Assembly: GCF_026391055.1 (NCBI RefSeq)
Contig: NZ_JAPLET010000015.1
Span: forward strand, 434,001-498,000
Length of the DNA: 64,000 bases
Direction of reading: 5' to 3'
Source: Spirosoma sp.
GTDB taxonomy: Bacteria > Bacteroidota > Bacteroidia > Cytophagales > Spirosomataceae
The notes beneath the pieces were generated by a model. That model was given only the letters and a program-made list of their open reading frames with translations, was not told the origin of the DNA and did not search any database. The translations under genes were made by a program, and so were the position numbers. This document shows, piece after piece, positions 5,852 through 64,000 of this stretch (position 1 is its first letter; the number at the start of each line of letters is the position of its first letter).

Positions 5852-7087
5852 TTGCCGATGAAGCGTTCCCTGTTGTTTTTTCTGGTGTTTATTTTCCTGC
5901 TGATCGCCCTTGAGGTGTTGAGCGTCTATTTTATCATGCCGTTCCCCGGTAGCCAGCTTGGTCTCGGCGAATCCGACTCGGGCCACACGTCATTGGGCCG
6001 GGTTGAACTCGCCTACTGGCTACACCGGAATATTGGCTGGTTACGTGTCGTTGGGTGGTTGCTGCTGATCTACCCGACGTTTCTGGTGTTTACAAAACCC
6101 CGGCGGACGTGGCACCGCTATATGGCGGGTGGTCTGGTAGCGCTTTATGGCGTTGTGTTCTATGAAGTGAATCAGGAGATGATGGCCGATCAGATGTTTA
6201 AGCAACCTATCAATAAGCGGGTCGTTTCCATGAGTGAGAACAAAATTCCGCTCAATAAACTGGTGCTGGGGTTCACCGCTATTGGACAGGCAACGGCCTA
6301 CCCGATTCAACTCATTGGCTACCATCATCAGGTACGCGACACGGTGGGCGGCCAGCCGGTTATGATCACGTATTGTACCGTTTGCCGGACAGGGCGCGTA
6401 TTCAGCCCGATCATCAAAGGTCGGCCCGATGAGTTTAGGCTGGTGGGTATGGATCATTTCAACGCCATGTTCGAAGACAAACGGACGGGTTCCTGGTGGC
6501 GGCAAGCTACGGGCGAGGCTATTCTGGGGCCGTTAAAAGGAAACAGCCTGACTGAACTGGCAGGGCAGCACATGACTCTGGGCGAGTGGGCCGCCCAACA
6601 CCCCAACACGCGCGTATTGCAGGCTGATTCAACCTTTGCCGACGAGTTTGCCGGCATGAAAAACTACGAAAAAGGCCTGTCGAAGGGGAAACTCACCCGG
6701 CGCGATTCGGCTTCGTGGCAACCTAAATCGTGGGTTATCGGTGTGGAGAAAGCCGGTTTTTCGAAGGCATACGACTGGAATAAACTGGTAGAAAAACGTA
6801 CGCTGAGCGATGTAGTAGGGGGCGAACCCATACTGCTGACCATTGCGCCCGACAGTGTATCGTTCGGAGCCTGGAGTCGGCGGGTAGGGGCACAAACACT
6901 CACGTTTCACTATGCCAGCCGGCAACTCACCGATCAGGAAACAAAATCGGTCTGGACCTGGCGGGGGCATTGCGTGGCAGGTCCGCTGCGGGGAAAACGA
7001 CTTGATGCCATGCCGAAAGCCTATCAGGAGTTCTGGCATTCGTGGCGCAGTTTCCATCCCGATACCAAGCGGGATGATGCAGATTGA
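5852..7087 (+). CDS. DUF3179 domain-containing membrane-anchored protein
   Basis: Three N-terminal hydrophobic segments; TYCTVCRTGRVFSP...GSWWRQATGEAILGPLKG typical of DUF3179. Confidence 0.85.
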   Translation: MPMKRSLLFFLVFIFLLIALEVLSVYFIMPFPGSQLGLGESDSGHTSLGRVELAYWLHRNIGWLRVVGWLLLIYPTFLVFTKPRRTWHRYMAGGLVALYGVVFYEVNQEMMADQMFKQPINKRVVSMSENKIPLNKLVLGFTAIGQATAYPIQLIGYHHQVRDTVGGQPVMITYCTVCRTGRVFSPIIKGRPDEFRLVGMDHFNAMFEDKRTGSWWRQATGEAILGPLKGNSLTELAGQHMTLGEWAAQHPNTRVLQADSTFADEFAGMKNYEKGLSKGKLTRRDSASWQPKSWVIGVEKAGFSKAYDWNKLVEKRTLSDVVGGEPILLTIAPDSVSFGAWSRRVGAQTLTFHYASRQLTDQETKSVWTWRGHCVAGPLRGKRLDAMPKAYQEFWHSWRSFHPDTKRDDAD

Positions 7088-33788: not shown

Positions 33789-36329
33789 CTATTGACTCTT
33801 CAGAACATCTACCGGATTTGCCCTCGCGGCCTTCACCGTCTGCGAGCCGATCATAATGAAGGCGATCAGCAATACCACCAGCAAGCCCATGAATAACTCG
33901 GCAATCTGCACGGGGGTATGATACGGGAAATGGGTGAGCACAGCGTTTTCAAAGAACAAATAGCTGACGGGTAGCGCGATAAGGGCCGATATCGACAGTA
34001 GCAGGAGGAAACCACGGCTCAACAAGAAGATAAGGTTGACAGAGCTTGCTCCCATTACCTTGCGGATACTGATTTCTTTCAGTCTGGTTTCGGTTGAGTA
34101 GGCCACCATACCGAACAAGCCCATCGAAGCAATCGAAATGGCAAGGAAGGAAAGGAAGCCAATGATCTTGATAATCGCAGAAAATTCACTGTAGGCATCC
34201 TGAATTTCCTGATCATAGAACTTGGCCTGAAAAGGATGAACACGGTCGATCTTTTTCCAGGCCGACTCAATCCTGGTCATGGATGCCAGCAGATCAGTAC
34301 TTTGTATTTTGGCATTGATAATGGCCCTATCGCCGGGTGTCCAGCTCATGAAAGCTACCGGCCCGACGAGGTTGTCGATCTTGCCATAGTGAAAGTCTTT
34401 CATAACCCCCACAATGGTCATCCGGCGTGTTCCGCTGAAATTGCTGAATGTGATCTCCTGCCCGATCGCTTTTTTGGGGTCGTTGTTAGCAATGTTAAAT
34501 CGTTTTAAAACTTGCTGATTAACGATTACTTCGCTGGCGGCTTCGGCTGTTGTGGGCCTTGTTTTAAAATTACCCCCGGCAATGAGTTTGTATTCATGCA
34601 GATCCAGGTAGTTTTCGTCGACGTTGTTCGTCAGCACCAGCGCCGAGTCGCGCGAATCGACATATTTCATGTAGCCGCCCCAGGCATTGCCGACGCTGGT
34701 GATAATCAGTGACCGCGACAGCGCCGTTACTTCCGGCATCTCGCCAAGGTATTTCAGAAATGCATCGGGTTTATTACCCTGCATGTTTATATTCAGAATG
34801 TTCTGGGTGTTGAATCCCAAGTCGAATTTCAGGATATTTTTATACTGCACATAGCCAATGGCGGTTGTTGTGATAAAGATCAGTGTGAGCGTGTATTGAA
34901 TGACCACCAGAGCCTGTCGGAGTGTTGCGTGTTTGAACACGTTTATTGACAGGAACGATGGTGATATTCCGCCGACGAGGCTACGGGTGGACACGTTCCT
35001 GAGTGCATTGATCGCGCTGACTCTCGAAAAGAACAGGGCGGGCATGATGCCGGCAATAACCCCTACGGTAACGGAGAAGACGACGAAGGCGATGATCATA
35101 GCCGGACTAAGTTCGAGCTTCACTGTGCGCTGCAACTCCGGAGCCAGGTTAATCAGCTGCGGCCGCAATAGGAGAAAGATAAAGTAGGAAAGAACGAGGG
35201 CCGCCAGGGATATCATGACGGCTTCAACCAGAAACTGCTGCCATACCTGACGCTTGTCGGCACCAATCGCTTTGCGAAGCCCTACTTCCTTGAATCGGCG
35301 CATGGCGCGTGCCATCGACAGGTTGGTATAATTGAAACACGCCGACAGGATCACAACGAGGGCAAGCCCGCCGAGTATCCAAAGCACCGTCGGTGGCATG
35401 TGTGGCCCTCCAACGCCAGACCCCCCTTCGGCTTGACGGAGGCTTTCTCCGACCACGACACTGTATAAAGGCATTAGCTCAAGCTGGGTCTTCGTGTTTT
35501 CGTCGGCGCGATTTTCCTCCCTGGCAACGGCGTCGAGCTGCGACTGGATTGATGCTATATTGGCAGTCTCGGGCAGTAGGAGGTATACGGAGTTCGACGG
35601 CATACTTGCCCATTTCTCGAAGTTATTTCGGTTGAGCTGCTCGGCCGTTGACAGCGATACCAGGGCTTCGAAATGAATATGCGAAAAGAAGGGAACGTCC
35701 TTCATGACACCGGTCACCTGATACGAGAGCGTATCGAATTTGATCGCCTTGCCGAGTGCTGATTCATTGCCGAACAGCTTTTTGGCTGCCGTCTCTGTAA
35801 GAACGATCGAGTACGGATCTTTCAGCGCTGTTTCGGGATTGCCTTCTAACATCGGAAACGTGAAAATCCTGAATACAGACGGCTCCGCCCAGAAACCCTT
35901 GATCGGAATAATGGAAGAGCCAACCTGTGCGTCCTGCGAAAAGTCGTTGTGTAGAATGGTCACGTCCGCACCTGCGTACCGGTCAATGCCGGTCACCTTC
36001 TGCCGAATAAGCTTCCCGATCTTTAACGAAGTAGTGGCAAACTTGGCTCCGGGCCGCGTTCGGTCGGGCCGCGTTCGGTCGGGCCGAGCGCGGCCTGGAT
36101 TTGACTGACCGGCCTGACGTTCTTCCTGATTGGAGGTTTGTATGCTGGTAATGCGGTAGATCCGCTCCCCATTCTGGTGGAATCTGTCGTACGAATGCAG
36201 GTCGAGCATGAACGCGATCAGCAATAGCCCAACAGACATGCTAATGGCAAGGCCAACAATATTGATGGACGAGAACAGCTTGTTACGCATTAGGTTGCGA
36301 CTCGATGTTTTGATATAGCTTCCGATCAT
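33789..36329 (-). CDS. ABC transporter permease (duplicated MacB_PCD/FtsX)
   Basis: MIGSYIKTSSRNLMRNKLFSSINIVGLAISMSVGLL; VGLRKAIGADKRQ; SIRKVMGASSVNLIFLLSRGF; 846 aa. Confidence 0.94.
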   Translation of the reverse strand: MIGSYIKTSSRNLMRNKLFSSINIVGLAISMSVGLLLIAFMLDLHSYDRFHQNGERIYRITSIQTSNQEERQAGQSNPGRARPDRTRPDRTRPGAKFATTSLKIGKLIRQKVTGIDRYAGADVTILHNDFSQDAQVGSSIIPIKGFWAEPSVFRIFTFPMLEGNPETALKDPYSIVLTETAAKKLFGNESALGKAIKFDTLSYQVTGVMKDVPFFSHIHFEALVSLSTAEQLNRNNFEKWASMPSNSVYLLLPETANIASIQSQLDAVAREENRADENTKTQLELMPLYSVVVGESLRQAEGGSGVGGPHMPPTVLWILGGLALVVILSACFNYTNLSMARAMRRFKEVGLRKAIGADKRQVWQQFLVEAVMISLAALVLSYFIFLLLRPQLINLAPELQRTVKLELSPAMIIAFVVFSVTVGVIAGIMPALFFSRVSAINALRNVSTRSLVGGISPSFLSINVFKHATLRQALVVIQYTLTLIFITTTAIGYVQYKNILKFDLGFNTQNILNINMQGNKPDAFLKYLGEMPEVTALSRSLIITSVGNAWGGYMKYVDSRDSALVLTNNVDENYLDLHEYKLIAGGNFKTRPTTAEAASEVIVNQQVLKRFNIANNDPKKAIGQEITFSNFSGTRRMTIVGVMKDFHYGKIDNLVGPVAFMSWTPGDRAIINAKIQSTDLLASMTRIESAWKKIDRVHPFQAKFYDQEIQDAYSEFSAIIKIIGFLSFLAISIASMGLFGMVAYSTETRLKEISIRKVMGASSVNLIFLLSRGFLLLLSISALIALPVSYLFFENAVLTHFPYHTPVQIAELFMGLLVVLLIAFIMIGSQTVKAARANPVDVLKSQ
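36051..36095. repeat. 15-bp in-frame tandem repeat within permease CDS
   Basis: GGGCCGCGTTCGGTC x2 (36051-36080) + diverged GGGCCGAGCGCGGCC (36081-36095); encodes (PDRTR)n. Confidence 0.9.
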
Positions 36330-58281: not shown

Positions 58282-60705
58282 TTACTCACTCCTTAGCGAC
58301 TTCACCGGATTCATCAGGGCCGCTTTCACACTCTGGAAACTGACGGTGAGCAAGGCGACGCCCAGCACCGAGAGGCCAACCAGACCAAAGAGCCAGCCGG
58401 TCAATTCCATTCGGTATACGAACGTATCGAGCCAGTTTCGGGCCGCGTACCAGCCGATGGGCGTAGCGATCAGGAAGGCAATCAGGACCAGCTTCAGGAA
58501 GTTGAGGGATAGTAGCCGGGCCACCTCCAGCGTGCTGGCACCCAGTACTTTGCGGATGCCGATTTCCTTCGTGCGCTGTTCGATCATGAGCGATACCAGA
58601 CCAAACAGACCCAGGCCCGCAATCAGTACCGCCAGCAGGGCGGCATCGGTAACCAGTTCCTTCCAGCGGGCATCGTCGGCGTAGCTTTCCAGTCGGTCGT
58701 CTTCCATAAAATGGTAGCTGAACGGCTGGTACGGAATCAGTTTTCGGAATGTGCTCTCGATAGTTTGCAGCCCGGCCGTTGTCTGGTTCGGATCGAGTTT
58801 AACGTACAACTGGTTCATCTGTTCGGGCTTGCCCAGTTGCAGCAGGACGGGCTCGGGCTTGTCGCGGAGGGACCGGTACTGATAGTCGCGCACCACGCCC
58901 ACTACGGTAAGGTCGTGTCGAATGTTGTTTTCTTCGCGTTGCACGACTTGCCCCAGAGCGGGTCGATCAGCCGAAAGAAATTGCTTAACGAAGGTTTCGT
59001 TGACCAGAATATTCGAGATGCTGTCAGCCGTGTTGGTGTGGCTTAGGCCTCTCCCGGCCAGAATCGGCACATTCACGAAGGGCAGATATTGATCATCAAT
59101 ATACTCACTGGCCGACTTGAGGGGTTTGTTCTGTATGTAAAACGTGCCGGCTCGATGCCCGCCCGATTTTCGGGCCACAGCCTCGACGCCGGGTTTACCC
59201 CGTAGGACCTGTTTCACGAGTTCGCCCTGTTGCTCACGACCCCAGGGGACGTAAACCCGAACCCGGTTGGCACGTTCAAAGCCTACATCAGCCGTCTGAA
59301 TATAGTTGAACTGCCCACGCAGAACCGCCGTCCCGATCAGCAACACAATAGCGATCACGAACTGGACAATCAACAGCGATTTGCCAACCCGGTTACGCCC
59401 GGCTAGTTGTACCCTCCCATACAAAACTTGCGTTGGGTTGAAGCCCGACAGCACCAGTGCCGGGTAAAAACCAGCCAGTAGCGTAACCAGTATAATAAGG
59501 CTGCTAAACAGGCCAAGGGTTTGCGGATTTAGCAGAAAACTAAGCTGTAATGCCTTGTTGGCCAGAGTCGAGAACTGGGGAAGCAGGACATACACCAGAA
59601 GCAGGGCGGGGGCAAACGCCAACAGTGTGAGCAGGAACGTTTCGCCCACAAACTGCCCAACGAGTTGAGCGCGGGTGCTGCCCGTTGCCTTTCTGATGCC
59701 GATCTCTTTTGTCCGGCGTAGCGACCGGGCTAGCGTCAGGTTGATGAAGTTAATACAGGCCAGCAGCAAAATCAGTCCGGCAATTCCACTCAGCACATAG
59801 GAATACACCGACGAGGAACCCTGCATTAGCCCATTGCTCAACTCGTAGCGATTGTTGAGGTGCATGTCCGTGAACGGTTGCAGGTGATAGGTCGAGCTAA
59901 AGGGGCCGTACTCGCTTTTGAGCTTTGCCAGTTGCTCACTAGCGCGACGTTTAAACACATCGGCCATTTTACCTTCAACCGTAGCCCGATTGGCCGAAAC
60001 GCCGTTCCGGTCGGCACGCAATAGTACGAATGTATTCAGGAAGCCATCCGACCAATCGTTCTCATTCCAGTCTTTGCGGTCTGGCGGCAGCGATGCCACA
60101 AACGGACGCAGCACATCGAAGCGGATGCTCGAATTCATGGGGGGCACTTTCACAACGCCCGTAATGCGGTAGTTCTCGAAACTGCCGCCCGCGTCGATGG
60201 TCATGAACCGGTTCAGAACGTCGGTCGTACCGAAATACTTGCGAGCTATCTCGTCCGTGACTACCACATCGCCGGGGTTACTAAGCAACGTTCGGGCATC
60301 CGCTCCTGCTAATAACTCAAAACTGAATAATCGAAAAAAGGACGGGTCTACGTACATCACCTCCTGGTAAATACCCTCGTCTTTGTGGCGAAACAGCATC
60401 TCATAACCCTGCATACGGCAAAAGTCGGCCACTTCCGGCAGGTCGGCCTTAAACGCTGGCCCTTGTGGCAGACCCGTTGCACCAGTCGAGGTTTCAGCAC
60501 CGGCCGGGTTCGTCGTTTTCAGCACCACCCGGTACAGTTGGTCGCCCTGCTGGTGAAACCGGTCGAACGAGAATTCGTCCTGCACAAACAGCATGATGAA
60601 CATAACAGCCGCCAGTCCCGTACTCAGGCCAATGATATTGATCGTGCTGAGCGACCAGTTGCGAACCAGATTCCGCCAGGCAATTTTGAGGTAGTTTGTG
60701 AGCAT
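58282..60705 (-). CDS. ABC transporter permease (duplicated MacB_PCD/FtsX)
   Basis: MLTNYLKIAWRNLVRNWSLSTINIIGLSTGLAAVMFI; GIRKVLGASTLEVARLLSLNFLKL. Confidence 0.94.
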   Translation of the reverse strand: MLTNYLKIAWRNLVRNWSLSTINIIGLSTGLAAVMFIMLFVQDEFSFDRFHQQGDQLYRVVLKTTNPAGAETSTGATGLPQGPAFKADLPEVADFCRMQGYEMLFRHKDEGIYQEVMYVDPSFFRLFSFELLAGADARTLLSNPGDVVVTDEIARKYFGTTDVLNRFMTIDAGGSFENYRITGVVKVPPMNSSIRFDVLRPFVASLPPDRKDWNENDWSDGFLNTFVLLRADRNGVSANRATVEGKMADVFKRRASEQLAKLKSEYGPFSSTYHLQPFTDMHLNNRYELSNGLMQGSSSVYSYVLSGIAGLILLLACINFINLTLARSLRRTKEIGIRKATGSTRAQLVGQFVGETFLLTLLAFAPALLLVYVLLPQFSTLANKALQLSFLLNPQTLGLFSSLIILVTLLAGFYPALVLSGFNPTQVLYGRVQLAGRNRVGKSLLIVQFVIAIVLLIGTAVLRGQFNYIQTADVGFERANRVRVYVPWGREQQGELVKQVLRGKPGVEAVARKSGGHRAGTFYIQNKPLKSASEYIDDQYLPFVNVPILAGRGLSHTNTADSISNILVNETFVKQFLSADRPALGQVVQREENNIRHDLTVVGVVRDYQYRSLRDKPEPVLLQLGKPEQMNQLYVKLDPNQTTAGLQTIESTFRKLIPYQPFSYHFMEDDRLESYADDARWKELVTDAALLAVLIAGLGLFGLVSLMIEQRTKEIGIRKVLGASTLEVARLLSLNFLKLVLIAFLIATPIGWYAARNWLDTFVYRMELTGWLFGLVGLSVLGVALLTVSFQSVKAALMNPVKSLRSE

Positions 60706-60728
60706 AGGGCAAGGGGCTTGGGTGGTGT

Positions 60729-60756
60729 GTAGAGACAACGCATGCGTTGCCTCTAC
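60729..60756. repeat. GTAGAGAC-family palindrome (one mismatch pair)
   Basis: GTAGAGACAACGCATGCGTTGCCTCTAC; first 21 nt identical to 51560-51580. Confidence 0.9.
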
Positions 60757-60766
60757 GTTGGCATAC

Positions 60767-63217
60767 CTATTCTGACCGTAACGATTTGACCGGATTCATC
60801 AATGCCGCTTTAATACTCTGGAAACTGATTGTCAGCAAGGCAATACTCATCGCCAGCAATCCCGCCAGGGCGAACATCCACCATTCGATGTCGATCTTGT
60901 AGATGAATTTCTGCAGCCATTTATCCATAATGTACCAGGCCACCGGCGAACTGACCACCAACGCAATCAGTACCAGTCGGACAAAATCAAGGGAGAATAA
61001 GCCGAAAATATGGGCCGTTGTGGCTCCCAGTACTTTCCGCACACCCACCTCTTTAGTCCGGCTTTCGGCCATGAACGCCACCACGCCGTAAAGGCCCAGA
61101 CAACCGATGAACAACGCAATGCCTGCCAGCAGACGGAACAAGGAGTACATCTGTTCTTCACTCTTGTAGAAATTGGCGAGGGTTTCGTCCAGAAATTCAT
61201 AGCTGAAGACAAACTCCGGGAAAGTGGCTGTCCAGGCCGTTTCAACCTGTTTCATGAGTTGGCTGATGCCCTCGGTGCCGCCCTGCCGGGTCGATAGTTT
61301 GATGGCGATGGTTCGGTAGTTGCCCCGCTGGGTGGTCAATACGCTTGGCTCGACGCGTTCCCGCAGCGAAAACATGTTGAAATCTTTCACTACGCCCACA
61401 ATAGGTTTCTTTACGTTCTCGCCCGCCACAGTCATCAGCTTCCCAAGTACCTGCTCAGGCTTCTGAAAGCCCAGCCGCTTCATGAACGTCTCGTTGATCA
61501 CTAGTTCACGAATGGAGTCGGCAGGTTGGTACATGCGCCCGGCAATGAGTTTCAGGCCATAGGTACGCACATAGGCGGTGTCGCCGGGGCGCATCAGAAC
61601 GCCGTAGCCGGGGTCTTTGTCGTCGTTGCCGTATCGAAACCCCGTGGTCCAGTTGCTGGTCGAAGAAGGGCTGGTCATGCCAAAGCTAATCGACTGAATA
61701 CCCGGCAGACCGATGAGCTTAGCTCGTAAATTGGCAATTGGCCCCGGATCATTGTCGGGTAGTGGCAGCGTCAGAACGGCGTCTTTATTGTAGCCCAGAT
61801 CGGCCGAGCGAAAGAAGCTCATTTGATTATAGGCGATGATGGTGCCGATGATCAGCAGCTGGGAGATAGCAAACTGCCCCACGATCAGCCCCCGCCGGAG
61901 GGACAACTGACTAGTCGCGCCCGCCGACTGCATCTTACCCTTAAGGGCCAGAATAGGCTGATAGCCTGACAGCACCAGCGCCGGATAAAAGCCAGCCAGT
62001 ATGGTGGTCAGTATACCCAATGCCAGTAAGAACCCGAGCACAATCGGGCTGAAGAGGGCTACCGCTCCCGGCTTTATGTTGAGCAGGTCGCCCACATAGG
62101 GCAACGAAACCTGAGCGACCAGCAGCGCCAGTACAACTGCCATACCCGTCAACACACTGGTTTCGCCCAAAAACTGCCGCACCAGTTGGCCGCGCGTACT
62201 GCCCAGCACTTTCCGAACGCCCACTTCCCTCGACCGGCGAATGGCTTGCGCCGTCGCCAGATTGATGAAGTTGACGCAGGCCGTTCCCAGAATGAAGAGG
62301 CCAATGAGCACCATCGCCCAGATCATTTCAATGCTGATGCTCCGTTGGGCATAATTCGATATGTTGGTCGCAAAATGGATGCTGGTCAACGGTTGTAGAA
62401 TATAGGCCAGTGTTTTGGCATCCTCGGGGTCGTGGTATTTATTGACGAAGCCCACCAACTGCCGTTCCATCCGGGCCGCCGGTGTTTCTGCTCCGGGGGC
62501 GGTTGGGGGCAGCATCATATAAATCTGGGCTCCGCCATAGGATGACTTCCAGTCGTCGGGGGGCGAGGTGCTGCCATACGCCAGTACGGACGCGTGCGAC
62601 AGGAACACATCGAACGGCATGCTGCTCGTAGGAAGCGGGTCCTCGATAATGCCCGTTACGACAAAGTCCATCCGGTTTTCCATCCGAATGGTTTTGCCCA
62701 TCGGGTTGGTATCGCCGAAGTACTTATGCGCCATGCGCTCCGAAAGAACCACCGTGTTTGGGTTGGAGAGCGCCGTTTGCGGACTGCCTTTTCTCCAGGT
62801 ATAATCGAAGAGGGTAAAATACTCCGGTTCGGCAAAAGCGATTACGCCGTCCGTTTCCTGAAAACGTTTGGTATCGGCATTGGCCTTGCCCGGTACGGCA
62901 ACCACTGCCGATTTTATCCGGGTAACTAATGTAAGCTGGTGTTTCAGCTCCGGGAAGTCGTTCCGAAGCGCAGCCAGTGCCGGGAACGTGATGCCCGTAT
63001 TCAGCTTGCCGTTGGGGTCCGTTTTGTTCGCGCCAAGCATGCGGTAAATCCGGTCGGCGTTGGCGTTGTGTTTATCGAAGCTGAGTTCGTAGCGGACGGC
63101 CACAAAAAGCAGCAGACAGCAGGCCAGACCCAGCGTCAGGCCCAGTACATTGATGGTGGAGTAACTCCAGTTGCGCTTCAAAGCGCGCAGGGCGGTGGTG
63201 ATATAGTTTTTTAACAT
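60767..63217 (-). CDS. ABC transporter permease (duplicated MacB_PCD/FtsX)
   Basis: MLKNYITTALRALKRNWSYSTINVLGLTLGLACCLLLF; GVRKVLGATTAHIFGLFSLDFVRL. Confidence 0.94.
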   Translation of the reverse strand: MLKNYITTALRALKRNWSYSTINVLGLTLGLACCLLLFVAVRYELSFDKHNANADRIYRMLGANKTDPNGKLNTGITFPALAALRNDFPELKHQLTLVTRIKSAVVAVPGKANADTKRFQETDGVIAFAEPEYFTLFDYTWRKGSPQTALSNPNTVVLSERMAHKYFGDTNPMGKTIRMENRMDFVVTGIIEDPLPTSSMPFDVFLSHASVLAYGSTSPPDDWKSSYGGAQIYMMLPPTAPGAETPAARMERQLVGFVNKYHDPEDAKTLAYILQPLTSIHFATNISNYAQRSISIEMIWAMVLIGLFILGTACVNFINLATAQAIRRSREVGVRKVLGSTRGQLVRQFLGETSVLTGMAVVLALLVAQVSLPYVGDLLNIKPGAVALFSPIVLGFLLALGILTTILAGFYPALVLSGYQPILALKGKMQSAGATSQLSLRRGLIVGQFAISQLLIIGTIIAYNQMSFFRSADLGYNKDAVLTLPLPDNDPGPIANLRAKLIGLPGIQSISFGMTSPSSTSNWTTGFRYGNDDKDPGYGVLMRPGDTAYVRTYGLKLIAGRMYQPADSIRELVINETFMKRLGFQKPEQVLGKLMTVAGENVKKPIVGVVKDFNMFSLRERVEPSVLTTQRGNYRTIAIKLSTRQGGTEGISQLMKQVETAWTATFPEFVFSYEFLDETLANFYKSEEQMYSLFRLLAGIALFIGCLGLYGVVAFMAESRTKEVGVRKVLGATTAHIFGLFSLDFVRLVLIALVVSSPVAWYIMDKWLQKFIYKIDIEWWMFALAGLLAMSIALLTISFQSIKAALMNPVKSLRSE

Positions 63218-63283
63218 AAGTAGTACCGACCGGGACGGTCGGGTGTTATGTGCCGTGTTGTCGTTAAAACCATCCGGTTGATT

Positions 63284-63311
63284 GTAGAGACAGGGCATGC
63301 CCTGTCTCTAC
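63284..63311. repeat. GTAGAGAC-family 28-bp perfect palindrome
   Basis: GTAGAGACAGGGCATGCCCTGTCTCTAC. Confidence 0.92.
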
Positions 63312-63325
63312 GTGCGTCGGCGTTC

Positions 63326-64000
63326 CTATTCTGACCGCAACGATTTCACCGGGTTCATCAGGGCGGTTGCAATGGTTTTGCTGCTAATGGATATAAGGAC
63401 CAAAATCAGAATTAATAGGGCGGGGGCAGCGAAAAGCCACCAGCTCAGTTCGATACGGGTCGCGTAATTGGCCAGCCAGTTTTTGACTAAAAAGTAGGTG
63501 ACCGGCAGGCCGATTAGTATGGCAATCAGGACGGTTCGGATAAATTCTTTCGAGAGCAACAGCATCAGGTTGGTCGTACTGGCCCCAATCACTTTGCGAA
63601 TGCCAATCTCCTTCGTTCGTTTGGAAACGGTAAACGTAGCCAGACCGAACAAGCCCAGGCAGGATATTAGAATGGCGAAGCCCGTCAGGGCACCAAACAC
63701 CTGCTGGAAGCGGTCGTCAGCCTTGTACTGCTTGTCATATTCAGTGTCCATAAAGAAATAGCTGAACGGCGAATAGGGGAAATTGGCCTCGTAAATCCGC
63801 TTTAGCGTAGTGAGTTGCTCTTTGGTGTTGCCCCCGGCTGGATGGCCCCCGGCTGGATGGCCCCCGGCTGGATGGCCCCCGGCTGGATGGCCCCCGGCTG
63901 GATGGCCCCCGGCTGGATGGCCCCCGGCTGGATGGCCCCCGGCTGGATGGCCCCCGGCTATGGCCCCCGGCAAACTTCACACTGGCGAACGAGGTAAAAT
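63326..64000 (-). pseudogene. ABC transporter permease, C-terminal portion (5' end outside window), reading frame broken at an internal minisatellite
   Basis: ...FTSFASVKFAGG | 133-nt array | [35 protein letters not shown]...GIRKVIGASTTNLMLLLSKEF...; the two sides are in different frames. Confidence 0.75.
63831..63971. repeat. 15-bp GC-rich minisatellite
   Basis: CCCCCGGCTGGATGG x8 perfect (63831-63950), one 13-bp unit CCCCCGGCTATGG (63951-63963), partial CCCCCGGC (63964-63971). Confidence 0.97.

Follow-up and report, generated by a model that had tools for sequence, protein, structure and literature searches.

Results

A 15-bp tandem array splits the reading frame of a permease gene

The window considered here is the whole 64,000-nucleotide (64-kb) stretch of Spirosoma DNA that was analysed. 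Its strongest tandem array, as scored by Tandem Repeats Finder, occupies positions 63830-63971 (minus strand), with a period of 15, 9.6 copies, 98% matches and a score of 270. Read directly in the order of the gene strand (minus), native sequence GTGAAGTTT gives way to a 13-bp unit GCCGGGGGCCATA (63959-63971), eight identical 15-bp units GCCGGGGGCCATCCA (63839-63958) and a closing 9-bp core GCCGGGGGC (63830-63838), after which native sequence resumes as AACACCAAA. The 13-bp unit adjoins unique sequence at the gene-5′ edge of the array, stands out by the spacing of its G5 run (13 once, then 15 repeatedly), and is the cause of a frame shift. An initial annotation of this DNA had counted eight perfect 15-bp units and one 13-bp unit, which Tandem Repeats Finder and direct reading both bear out; the span that it gave is essentially correct, save that its start at 63831 is one base off.

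The host gene encodes a MacB/FtsX-type ABC permease. The end of its 5′ part lies at 63972-64000 (minus strand) and the gene continues past the window edge to L009:5885, a portion which we read from the assembly (G000:C15, locus L009). Starting at an ATG near L009:5885, the upstream frame runs through a MacB_PCD domain (PF12704, E = 2.7e-21) and a first FtsX domain (PF02687, E = 1e-13). The second, C-terminal FtsX domain (PF02687, E = 3.6e-12) belongs to the 3′ part (63326-63829, minus strand), which is in a different frame from the 5′ part and has a stop codon at its end. Within the array the frame breaks: the upstream frame, 723 codons long from stop to stop (L009:3741-5912), enters GGHSRGPSS... 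and then stops, and the downstream frame encodes (GGHPA)n before proceeding into FtsX. The insert amounts to 133 nt when the GCCGGGGGC core is counted once as native. This length and both translations had been proposed from the letters alone and are confirmed by our reading, and array-free orthologs together with the Pfam matches uphold the proposal that the tract is an insertion in a permease of this type. Chance is excluded as the source of the array, because perfect 15-bp tandem duplications are rare: in an unbiased survey confined to approximately 2.1 Mb of Spirosoma DNA there were only a handful, none of which approaches the array in length.

Several further repeats were seen in the surroundings and elsewhere in the genome. 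The permease is one of at least five FtsX-type paralogs that follow one another on one strand (window 58282-63973 and L009 to 10929), all of which end in MNPVKSLRSE. Two palindromes, a perfect one of sequence GTAGAGACAGGGCATGCCCTGTCTCTAC and another around GACCGGGACGGTC, are found between adjacent permease genes (window 63226-63242 and 63284-63311), and both recur between the next pair (L009 ~5890-5980); they are likely to be intergenic dispersed repeats. Another 15-bp array at window 36050-36086 has a different unit, CGGGCCGCGTTCGGT, in 2.5 perfect copies; it is in frame and encodes RPDRTRPDRTRP in the N-terminal region of another FtsX-type permease (ORF 33789-36329, minus strand). A 9-bp repeat CGGAGCAAC in 65 copies spans 580 bp at L163:4923-5503 (G000:C11).

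Both halves of the permease appear to be under constraint

Close orthologs of the permease, with 70-92% protein identity, are present in about 17 other Spirosoma genomes; named relatives with such orthologs include S. spitsbergense and S. luteum. The orthologs in the 17 genomes are open through the array site, and the complete ones are approximately 810-920 codons long. Wherever the site was read in an ortholog no array was found; instead, the protein reads SVKF, then two or three small residues, then N, K or Q. An ortholog 81% identical to the Spirosoma permease also occurs in a record titled Flavobacterium sp. SUN052 (L018), whose genus label may be wrong. Compared with five relatives, dN/dS is 0.09-0.12 upstream of the array and 0.04-0.10 downstream, such that the out-of-frame downstream part is constrained at least as much as the upstream part. 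Because both halves still look constrained, the frame break is either recent or not present in the cell, the latter implying a base-calling error. The suggestion of an in-frame 15-bp unit whose secondary shortening by 2 nt broke the frame is supported; the gene may be a pseudogene, or the break a sequencing error. Loss of this one permease would be tolerable, since the genome holds dozens of related ones.

The unit is a dispersed motif of the Spirosomataceae

What the initial annotation overlooked is that the permease unit is a DNA motif found in tandem at many unrelated Spirosomataceae genes. In other members of the family, short tandem runs of the motif, written as GCCNGGGGCNATCCA, occur at some two dozen coding loci that are unrelated to one another. 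A 30-bp dimer of the unit, allowing up to three mismatches, was found in 7 of 36 genus genomes (six besides the one studied here), each time at a different locus, and its reversed control in none. A degenerate dimer was found in 19 of the 223 Spirosomataceae genomes searched, against 1 for the reversed control. With another form of the pattern, hits came from 13 of 79 genomes of the family and from 1 of 312 genomes in the rest of the order (control, 2; Fisher 5e-9). A few of the listed matches are ordinary coding sequence hit by chance, such as L080, which resembles a TypA/BipA-type GTPase. Arrays of the motif are confined almost wholly to the Spirosomataceae. A viral vehicle was considered and dropped, there being no exact match to the degenerate dimer in IMG/VR.

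Most of the arrays sit in long open reading frames of ordinary conserved genes, with the protein continuing in frame past the repeat; all of the other coding arrays examined are in frame, the permease array being the exception. The hosts, named from recognisable conserved motifs rather than by family search (our permease, assigned by Pfam, excepted), include HisIE (in a linker; L097), a cysteine desulfurase (L070), a short-chain dehydrogenase (SDR; L085), a glycosyltransferase (in an FVDGPR loop; L225), a hybrid histidine kinase (L084), ApbE, an RsmF-like rRNA methylase, a sialate esterase and others. Array-free homologs were found for the permease, HisIE, glycosyltransferase, ApbE, RsmF, SDR, sialate esterase and cysteine desulfurase. 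Comparing assemblies of one genome per species, the number of units at a single site differs between species, being 1, 2 or 4 in the glycosyltransferase and 0 to 2 in the SDR. Four of the six possible coding frames are in use (GGHPA, SSRGP, LDGPR and PAGWP), from both strands. The remaining two, QPGAI and WMAPG, were not seen in the coding loci examined; both are more hydrophobic, and their absence may reflect a filter imposed by selection. Since the unit is read from either strand and in several frames, the recurrence lies in the DNA and not in the protein, and convergence at the protein level is rejected.

The source of the unit may differ between loci

In array-free homologs of the glycosyltransferase, the bases that encode VDGPR are almost those of the unit, and the native site matches the motif at approximately 13 of 15 bases, which is better than chance. 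The glycosyltransferase arrays clearly consist of repeated native sequence, and local duplication is enough to explain them. In the permease, GCCGGGGG is native at the exact array site in several array-free orthologs (L039 GCCGGGGGTAAG, L042 GCCGGGGGCAAT, L044 GCCGGGGGAAAT), at the same codons as the closing core, and CATCCA is absent at that site from all orthologs read there; therefore, native sequence could account for at most nine bases of the unit and does not account for the other six. The native sites of HisIE, SDR, ApbE and sialate esterase do not clearly resemble the motif more than other stretches of the same loci do, and the motif therefore seems to have been brought in at these four genes, or built up there by unseen steps. 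Pooling eight loci lends little weight (p = 0.09) to the notion that arrays generally arise where native sequence already matches the motif in part, and we do not adopt it. Local slippage thus fits some loci, and copying from elsewhere fits others. The genome under study contains no second near-perfect copy of the motif that could act as a template.

The number of loci overstates the number of independent origins, which is smaller, because arrays at the same site in several species can be a single inherited event. The three HisIE arrays are a case in point: a single origin fits the tree, with divergence of the units since, and three independent events need not be assumed.

Discussion

We consider it probable (roughly 0.7) that the permease tract is one member of a dispersed Spirosomataceae minisatellite family whose unit occurs at many unrelated sites, mostly within genes. 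The motif would start at a site either from native look-alike sequence or by being copied in from elsewhere, after which slippage or unequal recombination would change the unit number in steps of 15 bp, or five codons. Such steps are presumably tolerated by the hosts in Gly/Pro-rich loops, and selection would normally remove the out-of-frame variants. In the permease, the 13-bp edge unit would put the C-terminal FtsX domain out of frame, a change that may be recent and tolerated given the dozens of paralogs, or else an error of base calling. That the motif, once present, expands and contracts by five codons with selection holding the frame is the best-supported account of the data. More tentative is the idea that a motif-specific process of the Spirosomataceae, whether enzyme-driven or based on templated copying, plants and amplifies one 15-bp sequence in protein genes. 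If true, this would amount to a novel class of dispersed repeat, very short and acting as a five-codon selfish insert.

The 2-nt shortening might itself be an error of sequencing or assembly, in which case the real permease would keep its frame and carry an insertion of Gly/His/Pro/Ala repeats; such an error would bear on the frame break alone and leave the array as it is. The in-frame condition of the other coding arrays and the purifying selection on both permease halves argue for such an error, as does the nature of the data, the genome being a 31-contig draft and the tract being GC-rich and about the length of a short read. Against it, the 13-bp unit borders unique sequence at one end of the array, where reads should anchor best, and mistakes in the number of units would be likelier than the loss of 2 nt at this position. 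We regard an error as a serious possibility, although not as the favoured one.

It is unlikely that the tract is a purely local minisatellite, formed when slippage duplicated the gene's own 15-bp stretch and unrelated to the arrays elsewhere. The presence of GCCGGGGG at the site in several array-free orthologs speaks for such an origin, as do the glycosyltransferase arrays, which are clearly native sequence repeated. However, the CATCCA portion is missing from all orthologs read at the site, although other species carry identical units in unrelated places; given the few perfect 15-bp duplications per Mb, we estimate roughly that the genomes searched should hold far fewer than one match of this quality.

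An origin of the unit in a REP-like palindromic element CCGGGGYTATCCANANTNAACCC, or its movement by that element, perhaps via the associated transposase, is more doubtful still. One genus has many copies of a REP-like palindrome of similar core, CCGGGGCTATCCA, that contains 15-mers in register, as seen in genus g33 within the REP core GGGGCTATCCA (L073, L074, L089, L090), and there are about 11 related REPs in the genome studied here. However, approximately 14 of the 19 family genomes matched by the degenerate dimer score zero for the REP (e.g. G018, G025, G032, G148 and G162) and, because most array-bearing genomes are without it, the palindrome is not a general driver of the arrays. The copies in our genome are of a REP-like element of the form CCCCGG...CCGGGGTTATCCATAGTCAACCCTTTCAGGGTTGG, one of them at L145:13612-13726 (G000:C15 ~393600), and a relative of this element is present in 75 copies in G214 and 28 in G217. 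Expansion driven by hairpins was also considered and is not supported: the G-rich strand of the array folds worse than its own shuffles and the C-rich strand no better than shuffles (z of +4.4 and -0.8). The G5 runs recurring every 15 bases could permit a long-loop G-quadruplex.

Finally, a phase-variable (contingency) locus that turns the permease on and off is very improbable: although the 13-bp unit lies between 9-bp direct repeats GCCGGGGGC, such that slippage could gain or lose it and thereby change the frame, the phase-variation-like switch entertained in the initial annotation is not supported as an effect of unit number, because a 15-bp unit is five codons and changes in the number of such units never alter the frame (the single 13-bp unit alone does so). 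Moreover, dozens of paralogs accompany the permease, and none of the orthologs seen has the array.

Carried in frame by enzymes such as HisIE and cysteine desulfurase, the 15-bp unit offers a simple natural system for studying the spread of a short sequence between loci, and allows one to ask how protein loops tolerate inserts and whether function changes. Annotators should also bear in mind that an apparent frame break at an array of this sort may be an error. In the literature searched, coverage of which was incomplete, we found no description of this 15-bp repeat in Spirosoma or its relatives.

To our knowledge, dispersed DNA repeats within bacterial protein genes are seldom described, and the known cases are long and mostly palindromic. 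Intragenic minisatellites (VNTRs) of bacteria have unit lengths divisible by three and copy numbers that vary among related genes, and each locus usually has its own unit. The Spirosomataceae arrays share the first two properties, but here one unit is common to loci, species and genera. A close parallel is with the Rickettsia palindromic elements (RPE), 105-146 bp sequences with inverted repeats and a stem-loop (Ogata et al., 2000; reviewed in PMC2229807). As with RPE, a single family of DNA repeats occurs in frame within numerous conserved but unrelated protein-coding genes, which tolerate it; in contrast to RPE, the unit is 15 bp, is arranged in tandem, and shows neither inverted repeats nor unusual folding into a stable stem-loop. 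PARCEL, an amphipathic protein motif of 25 residues that shows dyad symmetry and lies in open reading frames of no assigned function (PMC2996958), likewise consists of tandem in-frame repeats that are dispersed over unrelated reading frames and recognisable in the DNA, whereas the Spirosomataceae insert has five residues, uses four frames and lies within known enzymes. The BrickBuilt minisatellite-MITE of Porphyromonas gingivalis also spreads a tandem-repeat unit over a Bacteroidota genome, but its 23-bp unit is always intergenic and is accompanied by leader and tail units bearing inverted repeats (PMC4596501), whereas the arrays described here are mostly intragenic, with no flanking terminal repeats seen, and are in register with a REP palindrome in genus g33 only. 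The Spirosomataceae repeat family differs from RPE, PARCEL and BrickBuilt in its unit length, its tandem form, its lack of a palindrome and its use of several frames.
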